Part shown: positions 5,178 to 61,260 of the stretch, piece by piece
How positions within the stretch are numbered: the first letter of the stretch is position 1
Layout: each line of letters starts with the position of its first letter
NCBI GenBank assembly: GCA_002356635.1
Contig: CP023454.1
Span: forward strand, 1,968,501-2,032,500
DNA: 64,000 nt
DNA from: Rhodobacteraceae bacterium QY30
GTDB lineage: Bacteria > Pseudomonadota > Alphaproteobacteria > Rhodobacterales > Rhodobacteraceae
Direction: 5' to 3'
The notes under the pieces: generated by a model
Seen by the model: the letters and a program-made list of their open reading frames with translations, nothing else
The model's database searches: none
Told to the model about the DNA's origin: nothing
Made by a program: the position numbers and the translations under genes

Positions 5178-8100
5178 GCCTCTCGGACATCTTCATCAAG
5201 CGACCGGTCCTGTCGATCGTCCTTGGCCTTCTGATCCTGCTTCTGGGCCTGCAGGGCGTCTTCAGCCTTCAGGTGCGCCAGTATCCCAAGGTCGACGAGA
5301 CGGTGATCACCATCACCACCGTCTATCCGGGCGCTTCGGCCGACCTGATCCAGGGCTTCGTGACCTCACCCATCGCCCGCGCGGTTTCGACCACGGAAAA
5401 CGTCGATTACGTCACCTCGCAATCGCGGCCCTCGGCTTCGGTCGTGACGGTGAACATGCGTCTGGGCGCCGACCCCGACGTGGCGCTGACCGAGGTGATG
5501 TCGAAGGTCCAGCAGGTGCGCAGCGAACTGCCGTCGGATGCCAAGGATTCGACCATCGTCAAGGGCACGGGCATGACCTTCGCCACCATGTATCTGGCGA
5601 TGCAGAACCCCAACATGTCGGCCGAACAGCTGACCGAATACATCGAGCGCGTGATCCGTCCCCGCATGTCGACCATCCCCGGCGTGGCGGAAATCCAGGT
5701 CATCGGCGGGCAGGACTACGCGATGCGGGTCTGGATCGACCCGATCCGCCTGGCGGGCCAGGGCCTGACGGCGGCCGAGGTGCTGGCGGCGATCAACAGC
5801 GCGAACTTCCTGTCGGCGCCGGGCAAGACCCGCAACGACTACGTCACCTATTCGATCACCATGCAGTCCACCCTGCAAACCCCCGAGGCGTTCGGCGCGC
5901 TGCCGATCAAGTCGGACGGGGATCGGGTGGTGCGGCTGCGCGACGTGGCCCGCGTGGAACTCGCCGCCGCCTCGACCGACACGGTCGTCACCTTCAACGG
6001 CGAGCCGGGCACCTTCATCGGCGTCTTCCCGACGCCTGCGACCAACCCGCTGGACATGTCGGCCGCGGTCCTGAAGGAACTGCCCTCGATCCAGGCCGGG
6101 TTGCCGCAGGGCATGTCGGTCAAGATGGTCTATGACAGCACTGAACAGATCAGCGCCTCGATCGACGAGGTGTTCAAGACCATCGCCGAAGCCGTGGCCA
6201 TCGTCATCGTCATCATCCTCTTGTTCCTCGGCTCGTTCCGGTCGGTGCTGATGCCCATTGTCACCATCCCGCTGTCGCTGGTGGGGGTGATGTTCATCCT
6301 GTTCATGCTGGGCTATTCGATCAACCTTCTGTCGCTGCTGGCGATGGTGCTGGCCATCGGGCTTGTGGTCGATGACGCCATCGTGGTGGTGGAAAACATC
6401 CACCGCCACATCGAGGAAGGCCTGACCCCGATGCAGGCCGCCTTCCTGGGCATGAAGGAGATCTTCGGCCCGGTCGTCGCCATGACGATCACGCTGGCGG
6501 CGGTCTTTGCGCCCCTGGCCTTCACCGGCGGACTGACCGGATCGCTGTTCCGGGAATTCGCCATGACTCTGGCGGGCGCGGTGATCATCTCGGGGATGGT
6601 GGCCCTGACCATCACGCCGATGATGTCGGCGCGGATTCTCAAACGCGGCGGCCACAGCCGGTTCCAGAACTTCGTCGACCACACCTTCGACCGGCTGGCG
6701 GGCTGGTATGAACGGCGGGTGTCCAGCTCTCTGGATTACCGCCCGGTGACGCTGCTGATGGTCGTGGTGCTGGTTGGCCTGATGGGCTGGCTTTACACCC
6801 GGACCTCCAGCGAACTGGCGCCGGAAGAGGACGTGGGCGCCCTGTTTGCGATTGTGAACGCTCCGCCCTACGCGACGACCGACTACACCGACGCCTACAT
6901 CCGCCAGATGCGTGAAAAGACCAAGGATCTGCCCGAGCGCAAGATCGACTTTTCGATCACCGGCTTCGGCGGCGGCACCAACAGCGGCATCGCCCTTTGG
7001 GCCTTCAAGGACTGGGCCGAACGCGACCGGTCGCAAAAGGAAATCCAGACCGACCTTCAGGCACGGATCGACAGCGTCGCGGGCGTGCAGGCCTTCGCCT
7101 TCTCGCCCCCCTCGCTTCCGGGCGCCGGGGGCGGGCTGCCGATCAGCATGGTGTTGCAATCGACCGGCGATCCGTCGCGTGTCTATGAGGTCGGCGAACA
7201 GATCAAGGGCCAGGCAATGGCCTCGGGCAAGTTCATCGTGGTCCAGAACTCGTTGGCGTATAACGCGCCGCAGGTGACGATCCGCATCGACCGCGACCGC
7301 GCGGCGGCGCTGAACCTGCCGGCCCGTGACATCGGCGCGACGCTCAGCCTGCTGGTCGGCGGCGGCGCGATCTCGCAGTTCGACCGGGATTCGAACAGCT
7401 ATGACATCATCATGCAGGTGCCGGCCGAATACCGCGCCAACCCCGAAAAGCTGGGCGCGTTCTACATCCGCTCGATGACGGGGGACATGGTGCCGCTGTC
7501 GGCGGTGGCCAAGATCAGCACGAACGTCTCTCCGGCGGCCATCGAGCAATTCAACCAGCTCAACTCGACCACCATCAGCGCCCTGCCGATGGTCGGCATG
7601 TCGACAGGCGACGGGCTGGCCACGCTTCTGGACATTGCCCGCCCGATCCTGCCCGACGGATTCTTCATCGACTATTCCGGCCAGTCGCGGCTGGAGGTGA
7701 CGGAAGGCAACACCATTGTGGTCGCCTTCGCGCTGGCGATCATCGCGATCTACCTCGTGCTGGCGGCGCAGTTCGAAAGCTTCCGCGATCCGCTGATCAT
7801 CCTGATGTCGGTGCCGCTGTCGATCTTCGGGGCCATCGTGCCCCTGAACCTGGGGCTTGGAACGCTGAACATCTACACGCAGGTGGGGCTGATCACCCTG
7901 ATCGGCCTGATCACCAAGCACGGCATCCTGCTGGTGGAATTCGCCAACCAGATCCGGCGCGAACGGGGCCTGTCGCGGCGCGACGGCATTGTCGCTTCGG
8001 CCAAGGTTCGGCTTCGCCCCATCCTGATGACCACGGCGGCCATGGCGCTGGGGGTCGTGCCCCTGATCGTGGCGCAAGGCGCCGGGGCGGCGGCGCGCTA

Positions 8101-8254
8101 TTCGATGGGTCTGGTGATCTTCACCGGGATCAGCCTCGGCACCATCTTCACCCTGTTCGTCGTGCCGATGTTCTACACGTTGATTTCCCCGCGCGAAATG
8201 CCACGCGCCCCCGAGGAACCGGACCAGAGGCTGGCGGCAGGCGTGGGACACTGA
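5174..8254 (+). CDS. RND efflux pump inner-membrane transporter (HAE-1 family), system 1
   Basis: 1026 residues, the usual AcrB/MexB length, with a 4-base overlap with its adaptor. Twelve membrane segments in two halves surround two large periplasmic loops. The proton-relay aspartates are present in TM4 (VVDDAIVVVEN) and the relay lysine is K915 (ITKHGILLVEF). It should exchange protons for hydrophobic or amphiphilic drugs taken from the periplasm or membrane. No TolC/OprM homologue is in the window. The substrate range cannot be read from sequence. Confidence 0.94.
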   Translation: MSLSDIFIKRPVLSIVLGLLILLLGLQGVFSLQVRQYPKVDETVITITTVYPGASADLIQGFVTSPIARAVSTTENVDYVTSQSRPSASVVTVNMRLGADPDVALTEVMSKVQQVRSELPSDAKDSTIVKGTGMTFATMYLAMQNPNMSAEQLTEYIERVIRPRMSTIPGVAEIQVIGGQDYAMRVWIDPIRLAGQGLTAAEVLAAINSANFLSAPGKTRNDYVTYSITMQSTLQTPEAFGALPIKSDGDRVVRLRDVARVELAAASTDTVVTFNGEPGTFIGVFPTPATNPLDMSAAVLKELPSIQAGLPQGMSVKMVYDSTEQISASIDEVFKTIAEAVAIVIVIILLFLGSFRSVLMPIVTIPLSLVGVMFILFMLGYSINLLSLLAMVLAIGLVVDDAIVVVENIHRHIEEGLTPMQAAFLGMKEIFGPVVAMTITLAAVFAPLAFTGGLTGSLFREFAMTLAGAVIISGMVALTITPMMSARILKRGGHSRFQNFVDHTFDRLAGWYERRVSSSLDYRPVTLLMVVVLVGLMGWLYTRTSSELAPEEDVGALFAIVNAPPYATTDYTDAYIRQMREKTKDLPERKIDFSITGFGGGTNSGIALWAFKDWAERDRSQKEIQTDLQARIDSVAGVQAFAFSPPSLPGAGGGLPISMVLQSTGDPSRVYEVGEQIKGQAMASGKFIVVQNSLAYNAPQVTIRIDRDRAAALNLPARDIGATLSLLVGGGAISQFDRDSNSYDIIMQVPAEYRANPEKLGAFYIRSMTGDMVPLSAVAKISTNVSPAAIEQFNQLNSTTISALPMVGMSTGDGLATLLDIARPILPDGFFIDYSGQSRLEVTEGNTIVVAFALAIIAIYLVLAAQFESFRDPLIILMSVPLSIFGAIVPLNLGLGTLNIYTQVGLITLIGLITKHGILLVEFANQIRRERGLSRRDGIVASAKVRLRPILMTTAAMALGVVPLIVAQGAGAAARYSMGLVIFTGISLGTIFTLFVVPMFYTLISPREMPRAPEEPDQRLAAGVGH

Positions 8255-8371
8255 TTCCTCCTTTCGTCCGGCCGACATGAAAGCCCCACCCGCTTGTTCA
8301 GAGGGTGGCGGCGCCCCATGTCCCCGCCACGGGGTCCGGCACCACGCCGGACCGGACAGGGGGAGGATACG

Positions 8372-8713
8372 ATGCGAAACGAACAGGCCGCGCCCGAGAC
8401 AAGGGGCGTCACGGTGGAACTGCTGTCGGTCGTCGACCTGGGGCCCGAAATTCCCGGAATGGCGGGCCGCCAGTTGCGGATGCGCAAGGTGACAATCGCC
8501 CCCGGGGGCGTCTTCGGTCCGCTGCACGATCACGTCGACCGGCCCGGGACGGTCTACATCCTGGAAGGCACCATCACCGACCACCGCAACGGCCTTGCCA
8601 CGGACTATGGCCCCGGCCCCGGTTGGCCCGAGGACCACGACACCCTGCACTGGCTGGAAAACCGGGGAACGGTTCCGGCGGTCGAAATCTCGGTCGACAT
8701 CGTCCGAAGCTGA
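8372..8713 (+). CDS. Small single-domain cupin protein
   Basis: 113 residues from ATG 8372 with a strong GGGGAGGA site. The first cupin motif is clear (LHDHVDRPGTVYILEG, with H-x-H and the later Glu) and the second is weaker (TLHWLENRGTVPAVE). No signal peptide or DNA-binding domain is seen, so it is probably cytoplasmic. It sits alone between the two RND systems on the same strand. A metal-dependent isomerase or dioxygenase, or a ligand-binding accessory protein, are equally possible. Confidence 0.75.
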   Translation: MRNEQAAPETRGVTVELLSVVDLGPEIPGMAGRQLRMRKVTIAPGGVFGPLHDHVDRPGTVYILEGTITDHRNGLATDYGPGPGWPEDHDTLHWLENRGTVPAVEISVDIVRS

Positions 8714-8921
8714 AACCCCGATCCGCAGGAACAGGAAACTGTCACAATCGCGGATTATTGCCCTTGGGCGCGACGGAAAGTCGGCCCGCACCCGTATCAA
8801 CTGAACCTGGCGCGTCCACCCTTGGCCGCGATTGCCGCGTCCGGCCATCGGGCCTAAGGTCGCTTCGCCAGTAGCGTCCCCGGCTGGCCGACGGTCCGCC
8901 AAGCCCAAGCCCCGGAGTTTC

Positions 8922-10238
8922 ATGTTCCCGTTCCCTGCCCCGTCCAAGCGCCCTCGTGTCCTCGTCCCCCGCTCCAGCGCCGCGCCTGGGATCGTTGCGC
9001 TGCTGCTGGCACTGGCCACCGCCCTTCCGTACCCGGCCCAGGGACAGGCCGCGGCGGGGGCGCAGGCCACGTCCCGGCCCGCTGCGGGATCGGATCCGGC
9101 ATCGGGCGGATCCGGCGCCAAGGCGCGCGGTCCGGTCGAGGTGGGCGTCGTGTCCCTGAAACGCGAGGTCGTTCCCCTGAGCGTGACCCTGCCCGGACGC
9201 GCCGTGGCCCATGCCGCAACCGCGATCCGTCCCCGCGTGGGCGGGATCATCACCGACATCCTGTACACGCCCGGCACCCGGGTGCAGGCCGGCGCACCGC
9301 TGTTCCGCATCGACCCGCTGACCTACGACGCCGCGCTGGTGTCTGCCCGCGCCGCGCTGTCACGGGCCAGGGCGCAGTTGCCGGTGGCCGAAGCGGCCCT
9401 GTCGCGCGCCGAAAAGCTGGAGGGCGCCGCCACGACGACGGCCACGCTGGATGCCGCCCGCGCCGCCGCGCTGTCTGCGCGCGCCGATGTCGATGAGGCC
9501 GAGGCGCAAGTGCGGCTGGCCGAGGCGCAACTATCCTGGACCCGCGTCACCGCCCCGATCTCGGGCATCATCGGCGTGGCCGCCGTGTCGGTCGGGGATC
9601 TTGTCACCGCCAACCAGAGCGAGGCTTTGGCCGAACTGGTGCAGATCGACCCGATCTATGTCGATGTGACCGAACCTTCCGTCAACGGCCTGCGTCTGGC
9701 CGAACGCATCGCACGGGGCGAAATCGAAGCCAGCCAGACCGTGCAACTCCGCCTGACCCTTGAGGACGGCACACCCTACGAACCCCTTGGCGAACTGGTC
9801 GCGCCCGGCCCCACGGTTTCTGCCACCACCGCGACGCGGTCCCTGCGCTTTCGGTTCCCCAACCCCGATGGCCGCATCCTGCCCGGCATGTTCCTGCGCG
9901 GCGATCTGGAACAGGGCCGGATCGAGGCGATCCTGGTGCCGCAGCGCGCCACGACCCGCGCCCCCGACGGCAGCCTGAATGCCTGGGTGGCGGAAGGCGG
10001 CAAGGCGCGCGCCCGCAAGCTGGAAGCCTCGGGAACGCATGGCAACACCTGGGTGGTCGTGGCCGGTGTCCGCGAAGGCGAGACGCTCCTGGTCGACGGC
10101 ACCACCAACCTGCGCGAGGGTGCCGAGGTGAAGCCCGTTCCCGTGACCATCGACGCGCTGGGTGTGGTGCGCACCACCGCGCAGCCCGAGGCCCCGGCCG
10201 ACACTCGGCCCGCCGATGCCCCCCGGCCGGGAAACTGA
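8922..10238 (+). CDS. RND efflux periplasmic adaptor, system 2
   Basis: 438 residues from ATG 8922. A long basic N-terminus leads to a hydrophobic signal segment (GIVALLLALATALPYPAQG), then the AcrA-like order: lipoyl half (TAIRPRVGGIITDILYTPG), a helical hairpin rich in Ala and Arg (about 145-205), the second lipoyl half (TRVTAPISGIIGVAAVSVGD) and beta-barrel and membrane-proximal domains. The adaptor partners the pump starting 3 bases downstream. Upstream methionines exist in frame, but this start places the signal segment sensibly. Confidence 0.9.
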   Translation: MFPFPAPSKRPRVLVPRSSAAPGIVALLLALATALPYPAQGQAAAGAQATSRPAAGSDPASGGSGAKARGPVEVGVVSLKREVVPLSVTLPGRAVAHAATAIRPRVGGIITDILYTPGTRVQAGAPLFRIDPLTYDAALVSARAALSRARAQLPVAEAALSRAEKLEGAATTTATLDAARAAALSARADVDEAEAQVRLAEAQLSWTRVTAPISGIIGVAAVSVGDLVTANQSEALAELVQIDPIYVDVTEPSVNGLRLAERIARGEIEASQTVQLRLTLEDGTPYEPLGELVAPGPTVSATTATRSLRFRFPNPDGRILPGMFLRGDLEQGRIEAILVPQRATTRAPDGSLNAWVAEGGKARARKLEASGTHGNTWVVVAGVREGETLLVDGTTNLREGAEVKPVPVTIDALGVVRTTAQPEAPADTRPADAPRPGN

Positions 10239-10241
10239 ACC

Positions 10242-13200
10242 GTGGCGCAGTTCTTCATCGACCGTCCGGTCTTTGCCTGGGTCCTGGCGATCATCACCAT
10301 GCTGTTCGGAGCCTGGGGCCTGTCGACGCTGCCGATCTCGCAATACCCCAACATCGCGCCAACGACCGTGCGGGTTTCGGCCAACTACCCCGGCGCTTCG
10401 GCCGAGGTCACGGAGAACTCGGTCACCTCGGTGATCGAGGACGGGCTGACCGGGCTGGACGGCCTGCTTTACATGACCTCGACCTCGTCGGCGACGGGGC
10501 GGTCCTCGGTTTCGCTGGTGTTTTCCGATGCCATCGACCCGGACATGGCGCAGATCCAGGTCCAGAACAAACTCCAGATGATCCAGAACGCGCTGCCCGA
10601 CACGGTGCAACAGCGCGGACTTTCGGTGACGCGGTCGGGCACATCGACACTGATGGTGGGCGCGCTGGTGTCGCACGACGGGCGCTACACCTCGCTGCAA
10701 CTGGGCGACATGCTGCGCCAGCAGGTCGAGGATGCGGTCCTGCGCACCGAAGGCGTGGGCGCCATCGACATCTTCGGCTCGGGCTATGCGATGCGGGTCT
10801 GGCTGGATCCGCTGAAGCTGGCGCGCTACCAGATGATGCCCTCGGACGTGACGGCGGCGATTGCCGAGCAGAACTCGACCGTCAGCGTCGGATCGCTGGG
10901 CGCGCAGCCGGTGGTGCCGGGGCAGCAACTGACCGTCGCGCTGTCGGCACAGACGCAGCTTTCATCGGTCGAGGCGTTCGAGCACATCATCCTGCGGACC
11001 GAGGCCGAGGGCGGCACGGTTTACCTGTCCGACGTGGCGCGGGTCGAGATCGGGCAGGAAAGCTACGGGTCAAGCGCCCGGTTCAACGGCATGCCGGGCG
11101 CGGGATTCGGCGTCAACCTGTCCACGGGCGCCAATGCCGTCGACACCGCCGACCGTGTGCGCGAAACCCTGGCGCGGATCGCGCCGGCGCTGCCAGAAGG
11201 GGTCGAGGTCGCCTATCCCTACGACACATCGCCCTTCATCGAGGAATCGATCGGCAAGGTCTACAGCACCCTTTTCGAGGCCGTGGGTCTGGTGTTCCTG
11301 GTGATCCTCGTGTTCCTGCAAAGCTGGCGCGCGACGATCATTCCCACGGTCGCCGTTCCGGTCGTTCTGCTGGGCACCTTCGGGGTGCTGGCGCTGTTCG
11401 GCCTGACCATCAACACATTGACGATGTTCGCGCTGGTGCTGGCCATCGGCCTTCTGGTCGATGACGCCATCGTGGTGGTCGAGAACGTCGAGCGCGTGAT
11501 GGAGGAAACAGGCCTGGACGCCCGCGCGGCCACCCACCGTTCCATGGCGGAAATCACCTCGGCGCTGGTCGGGATCGCGCTGGTCCTGTCGGCGGTGTTC
11601 CTGCCCATGGCCTTCATGTCGGGATCGACGGGGGTGATCTACCGGCAATTCTCGGTCACCATCATCTCGGCGATGATGCTGTCTTTGGCGGTGGCGATGA
11701 TCCTGACGCCCGCGATGTGCGCCACGCTGCTGCGGCCTCGCCCGCATGGCGGGACGAACGCGCCGTCGCGCTGGTTCAACCGCAATCTCGACCGGTCCAC
11801 GCGGGGCTACGGCCGCATCGTCGGCGCGGGGCTGCGGCGGCCGCTGCGGCTTCTGTTGCTGCTGCTGGCCATCGGCGCGGGCTCGGGCGCGCTTTATGGC
11901 ACCCTGCCCTCGTCCTTTGTCCCGCAAGAGGATCAGGGCGTCATCATGGCCTCGCTCCGCCTGGCCGAAGGCTCGACCACCGCCCAGACCGAGGCGGTTT
12001 CCCAAGAGGTCGAAACCTGGCTGAACAGCGAACAGGCGGACGCGGTGGCCTCGGTCTTTACCGCCCAGGGCTTCGGCTTCGGCTCCTCGGGGCAGAACAC
12101 CGCGATGCTGTTCATCAAGCTGAAGGATTTCGCCGACCGTCCCGGCAAGACCGCAGGCGCCCTGGTGCAGGCCGGAAACGGCAAGTTCCGCGGCCACCGC
12201 GCCGGCAACATCACCTTCACCCAGCCGCCCGCCATCCAGGGCCTGGGCAACAACGCGGGCTTTTCCTTCGCCCTGATCGACCAGTCCGGCGCGGGCCAGG
12301 CGGCGCTGGAAAACGCTGCGACCGACCTTGTGGCCCGCGCCACCGAGGATGGCCGCGCAACCGGGTTCCGCGGCCACGAACGATCGCGCCGACCGGCGCT
12401 GAAGCTGGACATCGACCAGCAGAAGGCCCGCGCGCTGGGGCTGTCGGTCGCGGATGTGAACGGGATGCTTTCCGTCATCTTCACCGGGCGCGAGGTGAAT
12501 GACTTCGAACTGGGGACCGAACTTCGCCCCGTGATCGTGCAGGGTGCAGCGGAATGGAGGATGCAGCCCGAACATGCCGAAGCCTGGTTCGCCCGCAACG
12601 CGAACCGCGAGATGGTGCCCTTCTCCAGCTTCCTGACCCCGCGATGGGACGAGAACTCCCCCAGCCTCAACCGCTTTGGCGGCACCCGCGCCATCGAAAT
12701 CTCGGGCTCTCCGGCGGAAGGCGTCTCGACCGGCGAGGCGATGGCGATGATCGACCAGTTCGTGGCCGAGATGCCCGGCGGCTATGGCGTGGCCTGGACG
12801 GGGATTTCCTATCAGGAACGGCTGGCGGGCAATCAGGCGCCGCTGCTTTACGCGATGTCCGCGCTCGTGGTGTTCCTGTGCCTGGCTGCCCTTTACGAAA
12901 GCTGGACGGTGCCCTTCGCCGTCATGCTTTCGGTTCCCGTGGGGATCCTGGGCGCGCTGGGAGCGGCGCTGGTGTTCGGGCAGTCGAACGATGTCTATTT
13001 CAAGGTGGGCCTGCTGACGACCATCGGCCTTGCGGCCCGCAACGCCATCCTGATCGTCGAATTCGCGCAGACGCTGCACGAACAGGGGCTGGGGTTGGCG
13101 GAAGCGGCGCGCAAGGCAGCCGAGATGCGGCTGCGCCCGATCCTGATGACGACCTTCGCCTTCATGCTGGGCGTTTTGCCGCTGGCCATTGCCACCGGGG

Positions 13201-13355
13201 CGGGCGCGGCGGCGCAGCGGGCGATCGGCATCGGGGTGCTGGGCGGGATGGTGTCATCGGCCGCGATCGGCATCTTCATGGTGCCGGCCTTCTACCTGAT
13301 GGTGAAACGCCTGTTCGAGGCACGCGCCGGCAGCAAGGCGCGCCGGGCGGCCTGA
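10242..13355 (+). CDS. RND efflux pump inner-membrane transporter (HAE-1 family), system 2
   Basis: 1037 residues from a GTG start 3 bases after the adaptor stop; the first residues (AQFFIDRPVFAWVLAI) match the AcrB/MexB N-terminus. The TM4 aspartate pair is intact (LLVDDAIVVVEN). The TM10 position that is lysine in AcrB (K940) is arginine here, R933, in LAARNAILIVEF, while system 1 keeps lysine. The following RPILMTTFAF motif with the relay Arg and Thr is conserved. Proton-driven multidrug export is expected if arginine supports the relay. Confidence 0.92.
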   Translation: MAQFFIDRPVFAWVLAIITMLFGAWGLSTLPISQYPNIAPTTVRVSANYPGASAEVTENSVTSVIEDGLTGLDGLLYMTSTSSATGRSSVSLVFSDAIDPDMAQIQVQNKLQMIQNALPDTVQQRGLSVTRSGTSTLMVGALVSHDGRYTSLQLGDMLRQQVEDAVLRTEGVGAIDIFGSGYAMRVWLDPLKLARYQMMPSDVTAAIAEQNSTVSVGSLGAQPVVPGQQLTVALSAQTQLSSVEAFEHIILRTEAEGGTVYLSDVARVEIGQESYGSSARFNGMPGAGFGVNLSTGANAVDTADRVRETLARIAPALPEGVEVAYPYDTSPFIEESIGKVYSTLFEAVGLVFLVILVFLQSWRATIIPTVAVPVVLLGTFGVLALFGLTINTLTMFALVLAIGLLVDDAIVVVENVERVMEETGLDARAATHRSMAEITSALVGIALVLSAVFLPMAFMSGSTGVIYRQFSVTIISAMMLSLAVAMILTPAMCATLLRPRPHGGTNAPSRWFNRNLDRSTRGYGRIVGAGLRRPLRLLLLLLAIGAGSGALYGTLPSSFVPQEDQGVIMASLRLAEGSTTAQTEAVSQEVETWLNSEQADAVASVFTAQGFGFGSSGQNTAMLFIKLKDFADRPGKTAGALVQAGNGKFRGHRAGNITFTQPPAIQGLGNNAGFSFALIDQSGAGQAALENAATDLVARATEDGRATGFRGHERSRRPALKLDIDQQKARALGLSVADVNGMLSVIFTGREVNDFELGTELRPVIVQGAAEWRMQPEHAEAWFARNANREMVPFSSFLTPRWDENSPSLNRFGGTRAIEISGSPAEGVSTGEAMAMIDQFVAEMPGGYGVAWTGISYQERLAGNQAPLLYAMSALVVFLCLAALYESWTVPFAVMLSVPVGILGALGAALVFGQSNDVYFKVGLLTTIGLAARNAILIVEFAQTLHEQGLGLAEAARKAAEMRLRPILMTTFAFMLGVLPLAIATGAGAAAQRAIGIGVLGGMVSSAAIGIFMVPAFYLMVKRLFEARAGSKARRAA

Positions 13356-13434
13356 AGGCTCGGTCCCTGGCAGCCACTGGTTCGGCCCGCCCCCTCTTGC
13401 TAGGCTCTGCCCGAGGATCATCCAGAGGTCGACC

Positions 13435-14805
13435 ATGCGCCTTCCCGGTTTCGGCTCACGCCCCCGTCTTGTCGCGGCACTGGCGGCCGTCACACTCGCG
13501 GCGGCGGGCATCGGCGCCTATGTCGGCGCGGCGCCCGTCGAAGTGCGCATCACCCTCGACCCCAACCGGAGCCATCAGGTGATGTCCGGCTGGGAAGCCA
13601 CCGCCAACCTGATCGACGTGACCAGCCCCGAGGCCCTTCGCCTGCGCGCCGAACAGGTGCGCATGGCGGTCGATGAGGCGGGCATCAACCGCGTCCGGCT
13701 CGAGATCACGGCCGGCGCCGAAAGCCGCCTGGGCAAGCCGCGCGACTTTTCCGCCGGGCGCATCGACTACGACCGCTACAAGCCCTTCCGCTTTCGCATC
13801 CAGAACGACAATGCCGATCCGTTCGTGATCGACCCGGCGGGGTTCGACTTTGCCGAACTGGACTGGCTGGTCGACAATACCGTCACGCCGATGCGGCAGC
13901 TGCTGGCAGCGCGGGGCGAACGGCTGGTCGTCAATCTGTGCTATGTCGCCTTCGGCGATGGCCGCACGATCCACATGCAGCCCGAGGAATATGCCGAACT
14001 GATGCTGGCAGCGTTCCAGCACCTGAAGGACCGCTACGGCCTTGTCCCCGACCTGATCGAGGTGATGCTGGAGCCCGACCTTGACCGGGGCTGGACGGGG
14101 CGCGACATGGGGCTGGCCATGGTCGCCACGGCGCGACGGCTGAATGCGGCGGGGTTCCGGCCGGGTTTCGTCGTGCCATCGGTCACCAACATGTCCCACG
14201 CGCTGCCTTTCCTGCACGAGATCCTGAAGGTCGAGGGGACAGCGCCCCTGATCCGCGAGGTGTCCTACCACCGCTACGAAGGCACCAGCCCCCGGACACT
14301 GGCCGCAATCGCCGATGAGGCCCGTCGGATCGGCGCACAGACGGCGATGCTGGAATGGTGGTTCGGCAAAGCGACCCCAAAGGTCCTGCTGGAAGACCTT
14401 GCGGTTGGCGACAACGCGGCCTGGCAGGGCCGGTCCATCGACAGCCTTGTGGAACGTCCGAAGGATGGCGCGGGTCCCCTGCGCCTGCGCCGGGACGTGG
14501 CGCTGAATGCGCAGGTGTTTCGCAACGTCCGGGAAGGCAGCCGGCGCATCGGCGCCGAAAGCAGCGACCGGAACGTGACCCCGCTTGCATTCCTTTCCCC
14601 TGACGGCCGCGAAACGGTGATCCTTTTCGCCCATCGTGCGGGGACGGCCCATCTGGACGGGCTGCGCGGGACCAGGAAATACCGCATCGCCGGAACACTC
14701 GAGACCGGGCAGGACTGGCCGGGGATGATGCTTTCCGCGACAGAGGGCCGCCCGCTTGGCGTTTCCCTTCCGGATGCAGGAGTCTTCGCGATCACCGCCG
14801 AGTAA
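13435..14805 (+). CDS. Secreted or membrane-anchored clan GH-A glycoside hydrolase-like protein
   Basis: 456 residues; a signal or anchor helix spans residues 9-31. The body looks like a (beta/alpha)8 barrel with a C-terminal beta domain, the GH30/GH39/GH5 pattern: the sequence opens with a GH30-like phrase (HQVMSGWEATANL), a candidate acid/base glutamate is E213 in VMLEPD, and a candidate nucleophile is E307 in AMLEWW at the expected later strand. The precise family and substrate are not recognisable. It lies between the RND pumps and glycosyltransferase genes on the same strand, so trimming of a surface or host glycan is plausible. A hydrolase role is inferred from fold-level signatures only. 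Confidence 0.6.
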   Translation: MRLPGFGSRPRLVAALAAVTLAAAGIGAYVGAAPVEVRITLDPNRSHQVMSGWEATANLIDVTSPEALRLRAEQVRMAVDEAGINRVRLEITAGAESRLGKPRDFSAGRIDYDRYKPFRFRIQNDNADPFVIDPAGFDFAELDWLVDNTVTPMRQLLAARGERLVVNLCYVAFGDGRTIHMQPEEYAELMLAAFQHLKDRYGLVPDLIEVMLEPDLDRGWTGRDMGLAMVATARRLNAAGFRPGFVVPSVTNMSHALPFLHEILKVEGTAPLIREVSYHRYEGTSPRTLAAIADEARRIGAQTAMLEWWFGKATPKVLLEDLAVGDNAAWQGRSIDSLVERPKDGAGPLRLRRDVALNAQVFRNVREGSRRIGAESSDRNVTPLAFLSPDGRETVILFAHRAGTAHLDGLRGTRKYRIAGTLETGQDWPGMMLSATEGRPLGVSLPDAGVFAITAE

Positions 14806-53302: not shown

Positions 53303-54423
53303 CGGGACCGATCAACGAAGCGATCCGGGTTCTGGTGGTGGACGATTCCGGCTCGTCCCGGATGATGCTGCGGCGCATCGTCGAAAGCGATCCGGGGTTG
53401 CAGGTGATGGCCACCGCCTCGGATGCGTTCACGGCGGCGCAGCAGTTGAAGCTGGGGGTGCCCGACGTGATCCTTCTGGACATCGAGATGCCCGGCATGG
53501 ACGGCATCACCTTCCTGCGCAAGATCATGCAGCAGCGTCCGATTCCGGTGGTCATCTGCTCGGCCCTGACCGAGACCGGCTCGCGCCGCAGCCTTGAGGC
53601 GCTGGAGGCGGGTGCCCTCGATGTCGTGCTGAAGCCCCAGTCCCGGGATGCGGCGGCGCTGGCCGACTCCACCGTCCGCATCTGCCAGGCCCTGCGCGGC
53701 GCAGCCCAGTCGCGCCGCCGCGGCGCGCCCCCGCCGCCCGCGCGGCCCAGCCTGCCGGCGGAGATCGCGCCGAAACTGACCGCGGACGAGATACTGCCGC
53801 CGCCGAACCCGAACCTTCCCGTCGCCAAGGGCGCGCCGGTGGTCTGCATCGGCGCCTCGACCGGCGGAACCGAGGCGCTGCGCACCGTGCTGTGCGCCCT
53901 GCCCGCCGATGCCCCGCCGGTGCTGGTCGTCCAGCACATGCCCAAGGGGTTCACCGGCGCCTTCGCCAACCGCCTGAACGGCGCGGCCGCGATCACCATC
54001 CGCGAAGCCCGCGACGGCATGACCATCGGCCCGGGCGAGGCCGTGATCGCCGAGGGCGACAGCCATCTTCTGCTTCACGGCTCACCCGCGGGCTACCGGA
54101 CCCGGGTGGTCGGCGGCCCGGTCGTCTGCCGGCATCGTCCTTCGGTGGACGTGCTCTTCCGGTCCGCAGCCACGGTAGCGGGGCAGAACGTGCTGGGCAT
54201 CATCCTGACCGGCATGGGCGACGATGGCGCCCGCTGCCTGGGGGAAATCCGCGCCGCCCGGGGCATGACCATCGCGCAGGACGAGACGACCTGCGTCGTC
54301 TACGGGATGCCGCGCGAAGCGGTGCGCCTGGGCCATGTGGTGCAGTCCCTGCCCCTGCACCGGATCGCCGCCGCCATCATGGCCTTTGCCCAGCAGCATC
54401 GCGCCCCCGGGGCCGCGGCATGA
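53299..54423 (+). CDS. cheB: Chemotaxis response regulator / protein-glutamate methylesterase
   Basis: 374 residues, overlapping cheR by 4 bases. Receiver domain with phospho-Asp61 (LLDIEMPGMDG), a linker of about 60 residues rich in Pro and Arg, then the methylesterase with catalytic Ser in CIGASTGGTEAL, His in LVVQHMPKGFT and Asp in TGMGDDGARCL. It removes methyl groups and deamidates receptor glutamines, opposing CheR. Confidence 0.94.
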   Translation: MTGPINEAIRVLVVDDSGSSRMMLRRIVESDPGLQVMATASDAFTAAQQLKLGVPDVILLDIEMPGMDGITFLRKIMQQRPIPVVICSALTETGSRRSLEALEAGALDVVLKPQSRDAAALADSTVRICQALRGAAQSRRRGAPPPPARPSLPAEIAPKLTADEILPPPNPNLPVAKGAPVVCIGASTGGTEALRTVLCALPADAPPVLVVQHMPKGFTGAFANRLNGAAAITIREARDGMTIGPGEAVIAEGDSHLLLHGSPAGYRTRVVGGPVVCRHRPSVDVLFRSAATVAGQNVLGIILTGMGDDGARCLGEIRAARGMTIAQDETTCVVYGMPREAVRLGHVVQSLPLHRIAAAIMAFAQQHRAPGAAA

Positions 54424-56141
54424 ACCTGCGCTTTGATCCGCCGGCCCCGCCGCATCTTTCGGCCGACACGGTCACGCTGCCGCTGGTCCGGCTTCAGGCG
54501 ACAGCAGAAACCGCCTTTCTGGACGCCGGCCGGAACCTGGAAGCCACGGTCGACGAGCTTCACACCCTGCGCGGGCAGTTCGACCGCCTGCACCAGGCGC
54601 TGGGCCCCGAACGCAGCGCCGCCTTCCAAGAACGGATCCAGGCCGTCAACGCCCAGATGGCCACCCTGCGGACCGACCTTGAGGCCTTCGGCAGTTCCTC
54701 GGAAACCCTGCGCGGCGCCCTGCGGGCCATCCGGTCGGAGGTCGCGGCGCTGGATCGGGTGATGCGCACCATCGCCATCGTCTCGATCAACGCCCGGATC
54801 CAGGGCAACACCCTTGTGCCCGCCCGGCCGCAGGTCGCGGCCTTCATCCGGCAACTGGGCCAGATGTCCGAACAGGCCGAGGTGATCCTGCGCGAGGTGA
54901 ACCACACCATGTCCGGCGCGATGGACGACATCGAGGCGATGGGCATCCGCCAACAGGACATGATCCAGGCGCTGCACCGCGACATCCTGCCCGAAATCGC
55001 CCGCTTCGCGCAGGAATCGGAACGGATGCGCGACCGGCAGACCCGGCTGCACCAAAGCGCCACGGACCTTGCAGCGCAGATGGCCAGCCTGTTTGCGGAC
55101 GTCTCGCGCCTGGTTGTGGCGCTTCAGATCGGGGACTCGACCCGCCAGCGGCTGGAACGGGCCGAGGACGCGATCACCCGCGGCCTGGCCGCCCGTCCCG
55201 CGGCAGCAACCGTGCTGATCGACCTGGGCGACCGGCTGATCGAGGGCGCCCGCAACGACGCCCGCTCCGAGGTCGAAGCCGCCGTCGCGACGCTGGACGA
55301 GGTGAAGAACCGCGCCCTGCGCGCCATACGCTCGGCCGCGGCATCGGCCTTTGGCCAATCTCGGCAACCCCCGGCAAGCCACGCCCCAACCGGTGCGCTG
55401 GAACAGCACCTGGGGGAAAGCCAGGTCCACTTTGCCGCCCTGCGCACCCGCACGCAGCACGTCCACGACCAGCTGGACAGCATCCTGCGGCACGAACCCG
55501 CGCTGCGCAACATCGCCAACCAGATCCGGCTGGCCGGGATCAACGCGGTCATCACCTGCGCCAAGCTGGGGCATGAAGGGCGAACGCTACGGGAACTGGC
55601 GCAATGGCTGCGCCGCCTGACGGACGAAAGCGATGCGATCGTGTTGCGCCTGCAAGGCATCCTCGCCTCGTCGCAGGGGATCATCCGCAACGTGGGCGAC
55701 GTTCGGATCGGCGGGATCGACCGGAGCCTGTCGGTCTTTCTGGACGAAGCACGCCCGCTGGCCCGGATGACCGAGGACACGACCGAAGTTCTGGACGCCA
55801 CCGCGCAAGGTTTCACCGCGACCACCCGCCGCCTTCCCGACCGGATCGACAAGGCGCGCCTGTCTCTGGCAATGTTCCTGGGCCAGCTTGCCGATCTGGA
55901 CAGCGACCTGCGCGAACTGGCCCACCGCCGCGCTAGCCTTCCGCCGCCCGCGCTTCCCCTTCCGCCCGAGGATGAGGCGGAGATCGCCCACCTGCGCGCG
56001 CTTTACACCATGGCCGAGGAGCGCCGTATCCACGATCGCTGGGACCAGTCGCTGCGATCCGAAGCGCATACCGGCGAATGCATCGACGACACCGTTGCGG
56101 GAAATGCCGAGGAGGACGACGACGACGACGTATTCTTCTGA
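54420..56141 (+). CDS. Soluble coiled-coil chemotaxis protein with two degenerate MCP-like hairpin tips
   Basis: 573 residues, ATG overlapping the cheB stop. No membrane helix; almost entirely alpha-helical with heptads. Two segments look like worn receptor tips: SINARIQGNTL...RQLGQMSEQ (about 122-158) and GINAVITCAKLGHEGRTLRE (about 375-395), each set between long helices as in an MCP. The tail is acidic then aromatic (EEDDDDDVFF), like CheY- or CheR-docking peptides of CheZ and receptors. It may be a cytosolic array component, CheA inhibitor or CheY phosphatase. No family name is recognised. Confidence 0.7.
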   Translation: MNLRFDPPAPPHLSADTVTLPLVRLQATAETAFLDAGRNLEATVDELHTLRGQFDRLHQALGPERSAAFQERIQAVNAQMATLRTDLEAFGSSSETLRGALRAIRSEVAALDRVMRTIAIVSINARIQGNTLVPARPQVAAFIRQLGQMSEQAEVILREVNHTMSGAMDDIEAMGIRQQDMIQALHRDILPEIARFAQESERMRDRQTRLHQSATDLAAQMASLFADVSRLVVALQIGDSTRQRLERAEDAITRGLAARPAAATVLIDLGDRLIEGARNDARSEVEAAVATLDEVKNRALRAIRSAAASAFGQSRQPPASHAPTGALEQHLGESQVHFAALRTRTQHVHDQLDSILRHEPALRNIANQIRLAGINAVITCAKLGHEGRTLRELAQWLRRLTDESDAIVLRLQGILASSQGIIRNVGDVRIGGIDRSLSVFLDEARPLARMTEDTTEVLDATAQGFTATTRRLPDRIDKARLSLAMFLGQLADLDSDLRELAHRRASLPPPALPLPPEDEAEIAHLRALYTMAEERRIHDRWDQSLRSEAHTGECIDDTVAGNAEEDDDDDVFF

Positions 56142-56289
56142 CGGCGTGGTCATTGCGCTTGAACCGCCTGCGCCGATCGGTTGCCCGCACCGCGGATGAA
56201 GCCATTGACGTTGCATGACCGGTCGGGCCGTTCACTTTAAGTTGTCCTTGGGCGGCAATGGATCGGGTTTGCAAAATGCATCGAAATTC

Positions 56290-56318
56290 TTGACTGATTT
56301 TGTCAGCCAAGTTACGGC
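56290..56318 (+). promoter_or_regulatory. Predicted promoter of the adenylation-carrier-acyltransferase gene
   Basis: -35 TTGACT (56290-56295), 17-base spacer, weak -10 TACGGC (56313-56318); leader about 20-25 bases. The surrounding 100 bases are AT-rich compared with flanking genes. Confidence 0.4.
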
Positions 56319-56345
56319 AGCATCGGTAACAGCGCCCGAGACCCG

Positions 56346-58976
56346 ATGTTTCACGACCTTGACCATCTTCGCGCCCTTGGCGATCGTCCCTGCCTTCTGA
56401 CCGACGACGGCGGCCTTGTGACCTATGCCGCCCTGGCGGAGCGGGCCGCGGCGCTGGTCCCGGTACTGCCCGGGCGTCGCAGCCTGATCGGCATCGAGAT
56501 GACGCCTGATGTCCGGGCCATCGCCTGCTACCTGGCGGCGCTGTCTGCGGGTCACGCCGTCATGCCGCTTCCCTGCGATGAGGCAACCCGGGAACGGCTG
56601 GTGGCGCAGTTCCGGCCCGCGGCCGTCTGCGGTACTGCGGACGGACGGTGGCGCATTCGTCCCACGGATTGCACCGCGCCCCGGCTTCATCCCGATCTGA
56701 CGCTGCTTCTTCAGACCTCTGGCAGCACGGGTGCGGGACGCGGTGTCCGCCTGTCGGGACGCGCCGTGCAGGCCAATGCGGAGGCCATCGTCGATTACCT
56801 GAAGATAAGGTCCGGGGACCGCGCCGCGCTGATCTTGCCGTTGCACTACTCTTACGGCCTGTCGGTCCTGCATTCCCACCTTCTGGCGGGTGCAAGCCTG
56901 TGGCTGGCGGGAACGTCGGTCCTTGCCCCTGACTTCCCCCGGCGCCTTGCGGCTTCCGGTGCGACCAGCCTGGCGGGCGTTCCCCATCACTTCCGCCTTC
57001 TGGAAGGCACGGGCCTGCCCGAACGGCTGCCCGCTTCGATCACGCTTCTGACCGTGGCCGGCGGCGCGATGGAGCCGGGACAGGTCCGTGACTGGCACGA
57101 ACGGATGGCACGACGCGCGGGGCGGTTCATCGTGATGTATGGACAGACCGAAGCCACCGCACGCATCAGTTGGCTGCCCGCCGACCAGGCGCCGGCGCGG
57201 CCCGAGAGCGTGGGCATTGCCATTCCCGGCGGCCGGCTGTGGCTGCGGGACAGCGCGGGCCGCGAAGTCCTGACCCCCGAAACCGAGGGCGAACTGGTCT
57301 ACGAAGGCCCGAACGTCATGATGGGCTACGCCGCCGACCATGACGATCTGGCGCGCGGGCCTGAAACCCCGCAGTTGTCGACGGGCGATCTGGCCCGGCG
57401 CGACGCGGCGGGGTTCTTCCGGATCACCGGCCGGCTGTCGCGCTTTTCAAAGATCGGCGGCATCCGCATCGGGCACGATGCCCTGGAACGCGCGCTGGCC
57501 GTACGGGGGATCGAAGCGGCGGTCTGGGGCGATGACCGGCAGATCGGCATCGCCGCCTGCGGAAATCCCGGGCAGGTGGATGCCGCCCTGGCCGAACGCC
57601 TGACCGGGCTGCGCGCCCGCCACTTCCGGATTCTGCCCGTCGATGCGCTGCCACGCCGGCCGAACGGCAAGATCGACTACCGGGCCTTGCAGGAACGGGC
57701 CGACCGCCAGGACGAGGCGCCCGCCCTTCTGGAAGCCTTCCGCGCCGCCTTCGCGCCCCGTCCGGTCGAGCTTCAGGACAGCTTCGACTCGCTGGGCGGG
57801 GACTCGCTGACCCATGTCGAACTGACGCTGGCGCTGGAGCGCGCGCTGGGCGGCATTCCGGCTGGCTGGGAGAGCCGCTCCATCGCCGCGTTGCAGGGCC
57901 AGCGCCTGGACAAGCGCAGGGCCAGCGTCCCGACCGAGATCATGACGCGCGCCGCGGCCATCCTGGCGGTCGTGGTGGCGCATCAGACGCTCTGGCCGGT
58001 CTATGGCGGCGCGGGGGCAATGATGATCCTCATGGGAATGAGTTGCGCCAGCCACCGCTGGAGCGCGCTTTCGACCGGGGACGTCCGCCGCTTCCTGCTG
58101 CCCGCGGCGGGCGTGCTGGTTCCCTATTACCTGATCCTTGCGGCCTACGCCGTGGCTTGGGGACAGGTGCCGGTCGTCTCGGTCCTGCTGGCGGGCAATC
58201 TGGCCCTGACCACCCCCGAGACGCACCGGATGCTGCCCTATCTTTACTGGTTCATCGAGGTCTACGCCCAGATCACCCTGCTTCTGGCGGCGCTTTTCCT
58301 GGTCCCCCCGCTTCGGCGGCGGCTGGCGGGGCGGGGCCGGTTTGCCACGGGCCTGTGTCTTCTGGCGCTGGCCGTCGCCTTGCGCATCACGATCCCGGTC
58401 TGGGCGCCGATGGACGGGCGGGCGCAGTTCACCCTGCCTTGGGTGTTCTACCTGTTCGCGCTGGGTTGGTGCATCGCCGCCGCGGACTCGGGCGCGCGAA
58501 AGGCCGCAGTGCTGCTGGCGGCCTGCGTCCTGATGCCGATTGCCGCATGGCTGGGGGGGAACTGGTATGGCGGCTGGATCAAGTACATGAGCCTTCTGTG
58601 CGTCAGCGCGGGCCTGCTTTATGTCCCGCGCGTTCCGGTCCCCGCGGGGGCTGTGCGGCCCATAATGCTTGTGGCGCAGGCGGCCTTCGCGACGTACCTG
58701 CTGCATCGCCTTGTCCCCGAGGTTCTGTTCCCGGCACTGGGCCTTCAGGGTCAGGGCGTCTGGATCGATGCCGGCGCAATTGCGGGCGGGGTGGCGCTGG
58801 GCTTCGCGGCAACCCGGCTGCAACAGGGGTTGACCCGGGCCATCGGCGCGCTGAACCCCAGGCACGCCGCGGTTGTCCGGACCGCAGGCCGCCGCGTTCG
58901 TGCGCTGGGACTGCCGGGACGCGCCATCCGCGCCCGACCGGCTGCGTCCGCCCGTCCGGTCGAACAGGGCGGCTGA
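56346..58976 (+). CDS. Adenylation domain - carrier domain - membrane acyltransferase (AT3-like) fusion
   Basis: 876 residues. Residues 1-450: AMP-forming synthetase with P-loop LLLQTSGSTGAGRG, VMYGQTEATAR, STGDLARRD and catalytic K442 in RRPNGKIDY. Residues about 470-545: a carrier domain with phosphopantetheine Ser487 in LGGDSLTHVEL. Residues about 565-850: about ten membrane helices that open with AAILAVVVAHQT, holding the histidine expected in acyltransferase-3 proteins. The A domain would load an amino or hydroxy acid on the carrier and the membrane part would transfer it across to a glycan or lipid, a one-protein analogue of the Dlt route. Short basic tail. Substrate unknown; no phosphopantetheinyl transferase nearby. 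Confidence 0.82.
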   Translation: MFHDLDHLRALGDRPCLLTDDGGLVTYAALAERAAALVPVLPGRRSLIGIEMTPDVRAIACYLAALSAGHAVMPLPCDEATRERLVAQFRPAAVCGTADGRWRIRPTDCTAPRLHPDLTLLLQTSGSTGAGRGVRLSGRAVQANAEAIVDYLKIRSGDRAALILPLHYSYGLSVLHSHLLAGASLWLAGTSVLAPDFPRRLAASGATSLAGVPHHFRLLEGTGLPERLPASITLLTVAGGAMEPGQVRDWHERMARRAGRFIVMYGQTEATARISWLPADQAPARPESVGIAIPGGRLWLRDSAGREVLTPETEGELVYEGPNVMMGYAADHDDLARGPETPQLSTGDLARRDAAGFFRITGRLSRFSKIGGIRIGHDALERALAVRGIEAAVWGDDRQIGIAACGNPGQVDAALAERLTGLRARHFRILPVDALPRRPNGKIDYRALQERADRQDEAPALLEAFRAAFAPRPVELQDSFDSLGGDSLTHVELTLALERALGGIPAGWESRSIAALQGQRLDKRRASVPTEIMTRAAAILAVVVAHQTLWPVYGGAGAMMILMGMSCASHRWSALSTGDVRRFLLPAAGVLVPYYLILAAYAVAWGQVPVVSVLLAGNLALTTPETHRMLPYLYWFIEVYAQITLLLAALFLVPPLRRRLAGRGRFATGLCLLALAVALRITIPVWAPMDGRAQFTLPWVFYLFALGWCIAAADSGARKAAVLLAACVLMPIAAWLGGNWYGGWIKYMSLLCVSAGLLYVPRVPVPAGAVRPIMLVAQAAFATYLLHRLVPEVLFPALGLQGQGVWIDAGAIAGGVALGFAATRLQQGLTRAIGALNPRHAAVVRTAGRRVRALGLPGRAIRARPAASARPVEQGG

Positions 58977-60063: not shown

Positions 60064-60610
60064 TCAACCGGCGCCTTTCGCCCTTTGCGCAAAGATGCTC
60101 AGAAGCGCCTGCAGCCCCGAGCCGATCATGAGAAGACCGAAACGGCCTTCAGGACCGGGGTGGATTCGATCTTGATCATCCGGTCATACATCGTGATCGT
60201 CAGCGGCGCATCCGATCCGACCAGCATCAGCGTCGTGTTGAAGTTCTCGAAGGACATCAGGAAGGACACGATCAACGCGGCAAAAAGCGCGGGCGCCAGT
60301 TAGGGTGGCGTCACGGTCATCAGAACCCGAAGAAGGCTGGGCGCCCAGGTTCAGCGCCGCCTCCTCCAGCGATATGTCGAACTTGCGCAGCCGCGCCGCA
60401 ATGACCAGCGTCGTGACCGTCACCAGGAACGAGAACTGGCCGATGACGACGAGGAAGGTCCCGGGGCGCAGGATTCCCCAATCCCAGCCAAAGACCTCCT
60501 CAACGCCGTTGGCGATCATGCTGGCGAAGACAAGAAGCAAAATCCCCAAAATGACGCCCGGAATGACAAGGGGGACGATCATTATCAGGTAAAGCAAGCT
60601 TTTGCCCGGA
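60064..60610 (-). pseudogene. Decayed potC-like ABC permease (polyamine/opine type), truncated and frameshifted
   Basis: Only the part matching about residues 105 to the end of a PotC permease remains. IMIVPLVIPGVILGI and the EAA loop SLEEAALNLGA are in one frame; after about 60330 the reading frame shifts, and the continuing homology (FLMSFENFNTTLMLVGSD, then TITMYDRMIKIESTPVLK) is in another frame; a second shift near the C-terminus is needed to reach AQRAKGAG and the stop at 60064. The 5' third is deleted and runs directly out of potB. Confidence 0.82.
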
Positions 60611-60990
60611 AACGTCTGCCGCTCGAACAGGGACCCAGCCAGACGACGGACGAGGTGAAGACCAGCAACAGGACACCGAAGGTCGCGCCGGATTCCCAGT
60701 TAAAGCGCGTAACGAATTGCTCGCAGATCTGTTCCGTGAACCAAATCGAATTCTTCCCACCCAGCAGGATCGGGGTCAGATAGCTGCCCGCCGTCAGTTT
60801 GAAGACGATGATCGAGCCCACGACGATGCCCGGCATTGCGTAGGGCACGACGATCCTGCGAAACACCGTGAAGCGGCTGCCGCCCAGGTTGTAACCCGCT
60901 TCGAGAAGCGAATTGTCCATCCCCTCCAGCGTCGAGACCAGGGGCACAATCATGAACAGACAACGGTGTAGGCCTGGGCTTTCGCAATTG
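60585..60990 (-). pseudogene. Decayed potB-like ABC permease, 5'-truncated by an IS3 fragment
   Basis: The C-terminal half of a PotB permease is readable (MIVPLVSTLEGMDNSLLE, GSYLTPILLGGKNS, VFTSSVVWLG). Its 5' half is missing, replaced near 60985 by transposase sequence with a one-base frame slip. Its own 3' end and the start of potC were lost in a deletion near 60600, joining the two. No pot ATPase or binding protein is adjacent. Confidence 0.82.
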
Positions 60991-61260
60991 ATGCGATAGA
61001 CACGTTTGTGGTTCCACGCATGGGTTTGCGCAGATGCAGGAAGCACCGCCCGAAGCTCCAGGTCGTGCGGGCATCGGTCAATCCAACCAGCAGGTCGGCG
61101 ATCTCCTCGTTCTTGTCCTTCAGCTTCGGGCAGTAGCGCACGCAGGTCTCGCTGACACCGAAGGCCCGGCAGTCCAGCGCCACGCTGACACCTTCAACTC
61201 GCCGGTCGATCTGAGCCTTGTTGGCCCGTTCCACCCGAAGCGACGGCTTCGTGGCTGGAT
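60985..61260 (-). mobile_element. IS3-family transposase (OrfB N-terminal) remnant
   Basis: Minus-strand translation gives RAFGVSETCVRYCPKLKD, NEEIADLLVGLT and WSFGRCFLHLR, then after a one-frame slip HAWNHKRVYRI. This is the N-terminal part of IS3/IS51-type OrfB. The DDE catalytic part, OrfA and terminal inverted repeats are absent. The fragment lies against the truncated potB. The left boundary is set by loss of likeness and is approximate. Confidence 0.75.

Follow-up and report, generated by a model that had tools for sequence, protein, structure and literature searches.

In the Dlt system, an acid is adenylated, loaded onto a carrier and transferred across the membrane by three separate proteins, DltA, DltC and DltB, the last of which belongs to the MBOAT type, judged to be unrelated to AT3 (PMC9558356). 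For the AT3 acyltransferases (OafB, OatA, Oac), the known donor is acyl-CoA (PMC9558356), and the known fusions join AT3 to SGNH or alanine racemase domains (PMC9558356, PMC9833829). A single chain with an NRPS-like adenylation-thiolation (A-T) part and a membrane part is found in Pls and PosA, the ε-poly-lysine and δ-poly-ornithine synthetases, which polymerise cationic amino acids and whose C-terminal part of about 730 residues is built of six helices, with three segments between them that were modelled as β-helices (PMC10522769). An AMP-forming ligase is likewise linked to acyl transfer in the acyl-ACP synthetase/acyltransferase Aas and in the exosortase-associated ligase (TIGR03098). Aas transfers fatty acyl groups using an acyltransferase of another kind.

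In the window (the whole stretch of 64,000 nucleotides that was analysed), the three roles of the Dlt system appear to be gathered in one polypeptide of 876 residues, in which A and T domains precede a membrane part of the AT3/TmAT type. As judged from sequence comparisons and predicted structures, this protein is probably a self-loading transmembrane acyltransferase (A-T-AT3). The features of the locus are the following:

56142..56345, + strand: intergenic region of 204 bp ahead of the gene, in which neither a sigma-70-like promoter nor a terminator was found
56346..58976, + strand: complete gene of the A-T-AT3 fusion protein, 876 residues (open reading frame and full-length relatives)
56346..57695, + strand: adenylation (AMP-forming) domain, residues ~1-450, with TSGSTG at 124-129, the pocket residues S169 and R273 and the catalytic K442 (Pfam PF00501, 5e-35; structure matches)
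57708..57902, + strand: carrier (thiolation) domain, residues ~455-519, with the phosphopantetheine site S487 in GGDSL (Pfam PF00550)
57903..58880, + strand: AT3/TmAT membrane acyltransferase domain, residues ~520-845, with about ten transmembrane helices and R535-x10-H546 (motif, Pfam, profile, model)

The reading frame is open throughout, and its ATG start agrees with that of the orthologues (MFxDL...) in the alignment of relatives. The che-linked gene upstream ends at 56141, about 200 bp ahead of the fusion gene, and the next gene downstream, coding for a universal stress protein, lies on the opposite strand; the gene stands alone after the che operon, as the original prediction had described. 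The promoter-like site that was also ascribed to it was not recovered, since no sigma-70-like promoter was found from 56100 to 56400. A TGAC-N7-GTCA inverted repeat, situated at window positions 56288-56310, about 40-50 bp 5' of the start codon, and overlapping the sequence TTGACT, could be an operator. In the surroundings, the frame at 54420-56141 (+ strand) codes for a big che-linked protein without a confident Pfam family. Two short overlapping frames at 60184-61046 (- strand) are perhaps a decayed permease pair; part of an ABC-transporter permease domain (BPD_transp_1) was recognised in one of them, and no domain above the cut-off in the other.

By Pfam match, motifs and fold, the A domain belongs to the ANL superfamily and the NRPS adenylation domains. 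The A3 (TSGSTG), A7/A8 and A10-lysine motifs are invariant in the alignment of relatives, the catalytic K442 being situated in NGK, and the fold matches PltF, MatB, VinN and DltA at Z >36. When the full-length protein was used for the structure search, only A domains and A-T proteins were matched. In one search, the nearest solved sequence was that of MatB, a CoA ligase. Aas and TIGR03098 were among the best NCBIfam matches, none of which came near its curated cut-off (137 of 592 bits; 99.8 of 1221). The carrier domain was detected by PF00550 with 21.7 bits for a cut-off of 20.8, and its serine is placed in the G-x-D-S-L motif. G485, D486 and S487 are invariant in 36 relatives; S487 is present in 51 of 53 fusions, the remaining two having gaps at this position. 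TSGSTG, K442 and the carrier serine all lie where they had been predicted. As the one detectable phosphopantetheinyl transferase (PPTase) of the genome is of the ACPS family and AcpS-like by sequence, AcpS would have to modify S487.

The membrane part has in common with the AT3 proteins and with the TmAT proteins HGSNAT and GWT1 the R-x10-H motif, about ten helices, the TmAT fold and profile homology. The score of the 876-residue protein against PF01757 (Acyl_transf_3) is 22-25 bits, below the cut-off of 31; within the fusion family, 25 of 27 C-terminal parts are matched by this profile at E 0.01 or better, the best at 3.5e-13. Furthermore, profile-profile comparison with 29 stand-alone AT3 proteins from the same and related genomes gave a probability of 97.7% (E 1.6e-12, 293 columns). 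For the C-terminal part, AlphaFold2 gave a model (pLDDT 86.5, pTM 0.85) with about ten closely spaced membrane helices and no large soluble insertions, which bears out the predicted number. Rather than departing from the AT3 type, this model matched human HGSNAT (Z 13.3, 274 residues aligned, rmsd 4.8) and GWT1 (Z 10.8) in VIA-align, the next, unrelated row being at Z 6.4, and these values are to be read knowing that, for helical bundles, a Z under about 13 can arise by chance. HGSNAT and GWT1 are solved members of the TmAT superfamily (PMC12423673). With only the AT3 model as query, Foldseek retrieved nothing significant from the PDB. In TMH1, the AT3 motif corresponds to R535 and H546 and is kept in 36 of 36 fusions, so that the AT3-like first helix of the original prediction was found again; several other membrane residues are also conserved over long distances. 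Taken together, the motif, the Pfam matches in the family, the profile homology and the predicted fold show a divergent AT3/TmAT-superfamily domain.

Apart from the N-terminal A-T part, the fusions differ from the AT3 proteins by the loss of two features, the Asp of DxxR and the RxxR motif. Thirty-six fusions were compared with stand-alone AT3 controls from related genomes (27 for DxxR, 28 for RxxR). In the DxxR motif of TMH1, the Arg is kept and the Asp is present in 0/36 fusions versus 19/27 controls (25/27 when Asn and Glu are counted). RxxR, near the cytosolic start of TMH3, was found in 6/36 fusions versus 25/28 stand-alone AT3s (Fisher p 5e-9, uncorrected for shared ancestry), and the 876-residue protein itself lacks it in any TMH3 register. 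As the TMH3 register relative to the CoA-type AT3s is uncertain, two alignments being in disagreement, the RxxR claim rests on this register-free count. On fold, homology and R-x10-H the protein is placed in the AT3/TmAT clan, although it falls short of the PF01757 gathering score and lacks RxxR and the DxxR Asp.

In OafB, the R-x10-H and RxxR residues are essential, and Arg14, Arg74 (which belongs to RxxR), Lys279 and Arg338 have been modelled as holding the CoA 3'-phosphate (PMC9833829); the DxxR Asp is dispensable in OacB (PMC12423673). The TMH1 Arg retained by the fusions is likewise a 3'-phosphate contact in the OafB model. In its simplest reading, the loss of RxxR and of the DxxR Asp would reflect a donor arm supplied by the fused carrier, so that the cytosolic mouth need no longer grip the nucleotide moiety of CoA. 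A precedent for such a tethered donor is given by DltC, which docks on DltB.

With regard to the acid, Ser169 occupies in the alignment the position equivalent to Asp235 of GrsA and Asp230 of VinN. VinN, PltF and other amino-acid A domains carry at this position an Asp which binds the amino group of the substrate (PMC11253843). Ser is found there in 47 of the 53 fusions and in 20 of 24 stand-alone relatives, and Asp in none of them. Arg273 is invariant in all 53 fusions and 24 stand-alone ligases and aligns with VinN Arg331; in AfcQ, an enzyme of the VinN type, the corresponding residue is the proposed binding site for a second carboxylate (PMC12186527). Ser169 and the invariant Arg273 suggest a non-amino acid, possibly a dicarboxylic one. 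On account of the AfcQ proposal, a dicarboxylic acid is our first guess, albeit one more apt to be wrong than right. The specificity residues of the pocket speak against an amino acid, and the word aminoacyl, by which the protein was originally described, is not supported.

The stand-alone ligases (Bacillus, Geomonas and others), recognisable by YSYGLS and GQTEAxxR, are 35-44% identical to the A domain and have the same pocket residues S169, S173 and R273; they differ in having no AT3 part and, in several cases, a separate adjoining ACP gene. Among the loci with an A domain only, none showed a split arrangement in which an AT3 gene of its own lies beside the ligase. Stand-alone relatives occur in ACP-SDR-ligase-LuxE-LuxC operons. 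Such an operon recurs in L071 (Bacillus, 6518-13941), where alone its domains were confirmed, and in similar form in L065, L072 and L081. In L071 it is followed by GNAT, CMP-sugar-type cytidylyltransferase and glycosyltransferase-like genes. These contexts connect ligases of this type with acids bound to carriers and with glycans, without naming the acid.

The search with the full-length architecture revealed that the fusion recurs across Pseudomonadota and Actinomycetota, its members being annotated in databases as 'AMP-binding protein' or 'AMP-dependent synthetase'. Fusions with 50-62% identity occur in Leisingera plasmids and genomes, Marinobacterium, Balneatrix, Paracoccus, Rhodobacter, Gemmobacter and the Rhizobiaceae strain NT-25; those of rhizobial plasmids and of Roseateles XES5 are ~43-45% identical, and those of other Rhodobacteraceae, Phenylobacterium and Actinomycetota 31-37%. 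From Pseudomonadota to Actinomycetota, the catalytic signatures of the A, T and AT3 parts are invariant or nearly so. The distribution is patchy: the fusion is present in 13 of 395 genomes of the family and absent from one other genome of the same genus, and at class level 12 of 385 genomes match, more than half of these matches being an A domain alone. In the tree, whose root is for drawing only, gammaproteobacterial copies nest among alphaproteobacterial ones, which together with the plasmid location points to spread of the gene by horizontal transfer.

In seven more fusions (Sphingomonas, Sphingobium, Loktanella, Jannaschia and others), which form their own branch, the AT3 part is closer to the canonical type and a long loop follows TMH1. 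It may be that A-T became fused to AT3 on more than one occasion, or that one AT3 part was exchanged for another. In this set (L050, L058, L059, L060, L061, L064, L066), some members have GTS or GSS, not GDS, at the carrier serine.

No widely conserved partner gene was found in seven annotated plasmid contexts and ~29 other loci. Neighbour clustering of ~50 fusion loci gave almost only within-genus synteny, the gene looks monocistronic in most loci, and a glycosyltransferase-like gene lies within 6 kb at three of them. In Marinobacterium (L032, L033, L035), a NIT-ANTAR gene (nitrate-sensing, antiterminator-like; domains confirmed in L032) is located ~180 bp upstream of the fusion on the same strand. 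With no conserved neighbour, a patchy presence and plasmid copies, the fusion looks like a self-sufficient unit, in agreement with the self-contained enzyme that had been predicted.

The mechanism which we propose is a relay on the pattern of DltA, DltC and DltB, all steps of which would take place within one chain, and in which an AT3 would act where Dlt has an MBOAT. The A domain would adenylate a small acid other than an alpha-amino acid, and the activated acid would be loaded onto the S487 arm, its phosphopantetheine having been attached by an AcpS-type PPTase. The carrier would then dock at the cytosolic mouth of the AT3 part and feed its acyl-pantetheine arm, as a substitute for acyl-CoA, into the pore. 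Finally, H546 would help to pass the acyl group to an acceptor at the periplasmic face, which may be a glycan, a lipid or an exported small molecule. A more specific version is put forward tentatively, as possible rather than probable from sequence: the fusions may form a carrier-dependent, CoA-free branch of AT3, of which the loss of RxxR and the DxxR Asp would be the trace, and Arg273 may select a dicarboxylic or similarly charged (succinate- or malonate-like) acid for a periplasmic acceptor.

Four other explanations were weighed. Activation of an amino acid for transfer to an envelope polymer, as by Dlt or AlmEFG, would follow the same A-T-membrane logic, and the A domain does match PltF, DltA and VinN structurally; however, Ser169 stands in place of the amino-group Asp of the alpha- and beta-amino-acid A domains, and none of the 53 fusions has this Asp, which makes this version improbable. 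Membership of the Dlt system itself was ruled out by the membrane part, which is not an MBOAT, and by the same pocket. The A domain might instead be a CoA ligase next to a vestigial carrier, the AT3 part using acyl-CoA normally; the closeness to MatB, the retained TMH1 Arg and the known AT3 donor (PMC9558356) would fit, but the conservation of S487 and the erosion of RxxR and DxxR argue against it, and we consider it quite unlikely.

The protein could also make or export a small acylated molecule (a signal, an ester or a lipid) instead of decorating an envelope polymer. In its favour, no glycan or LPS gene is conserved beside the fusion, and AT3 proteins also acylate macrolide antibiotics (PMC9558356); on the other hand, biosynthetic partner genes are likewise not conserved and surface glycans are the target of most characterised AT3s, so that we hold this explanation to be unlikely. 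Lastly, the loss of RxxR and DxxR could mean an altered or lost acyl transfer. That the AT3 part is a transporter or a dead acyltransferase in decay would agree with two described AT3 motifs being missing or altered and with the transport role proposed for the AT3 of VanT, but R535 and H546 are kept in all 36 fusions and several membrane residues are conserved over long distances, and this appears very improbable. The self-loading acyltransferase is preferred over these. The architecture, the AT3 kinship, the self-containment and the Dlt-like logic of the original prediction stand, whereas its aminoacyl substrate and its promoter-like site are not supported.

Compared with the known systems, the fusion differs from Dlt in being one polypeptide with an AT3/TmAT membrane part, in lacking the amino-group Asp and in having no conserved partner gene. 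Pls and PosA have six helices with large soluble segments, unlike the fusion with its ten or so helices of AT3 fold and no insertions. No description of A-T-AT3 or of a carrier-donor AT3 was found in the literature searched, which lay outside most subscription journals and the InterPro architecture lists; the architecture is not described in the reviews of AT3 architectures, which list SGNH and alanine-racemase fusions.

The AT3 donor is thought to be free acyl-CoA, and the arguments on how it crosses the membrane still come for the most part from models. A naturally occurring fusion that has its own carrier and lacks the proposed CoA-phosphate motifs provides a built-in test of this donor model. 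If the proposal is true, the acids able to reach the cell surface would extend beyond the CoA thioesters of the cell, by means of a single mobile gene that symbionts, marine bacteria and actinobacteria carry.
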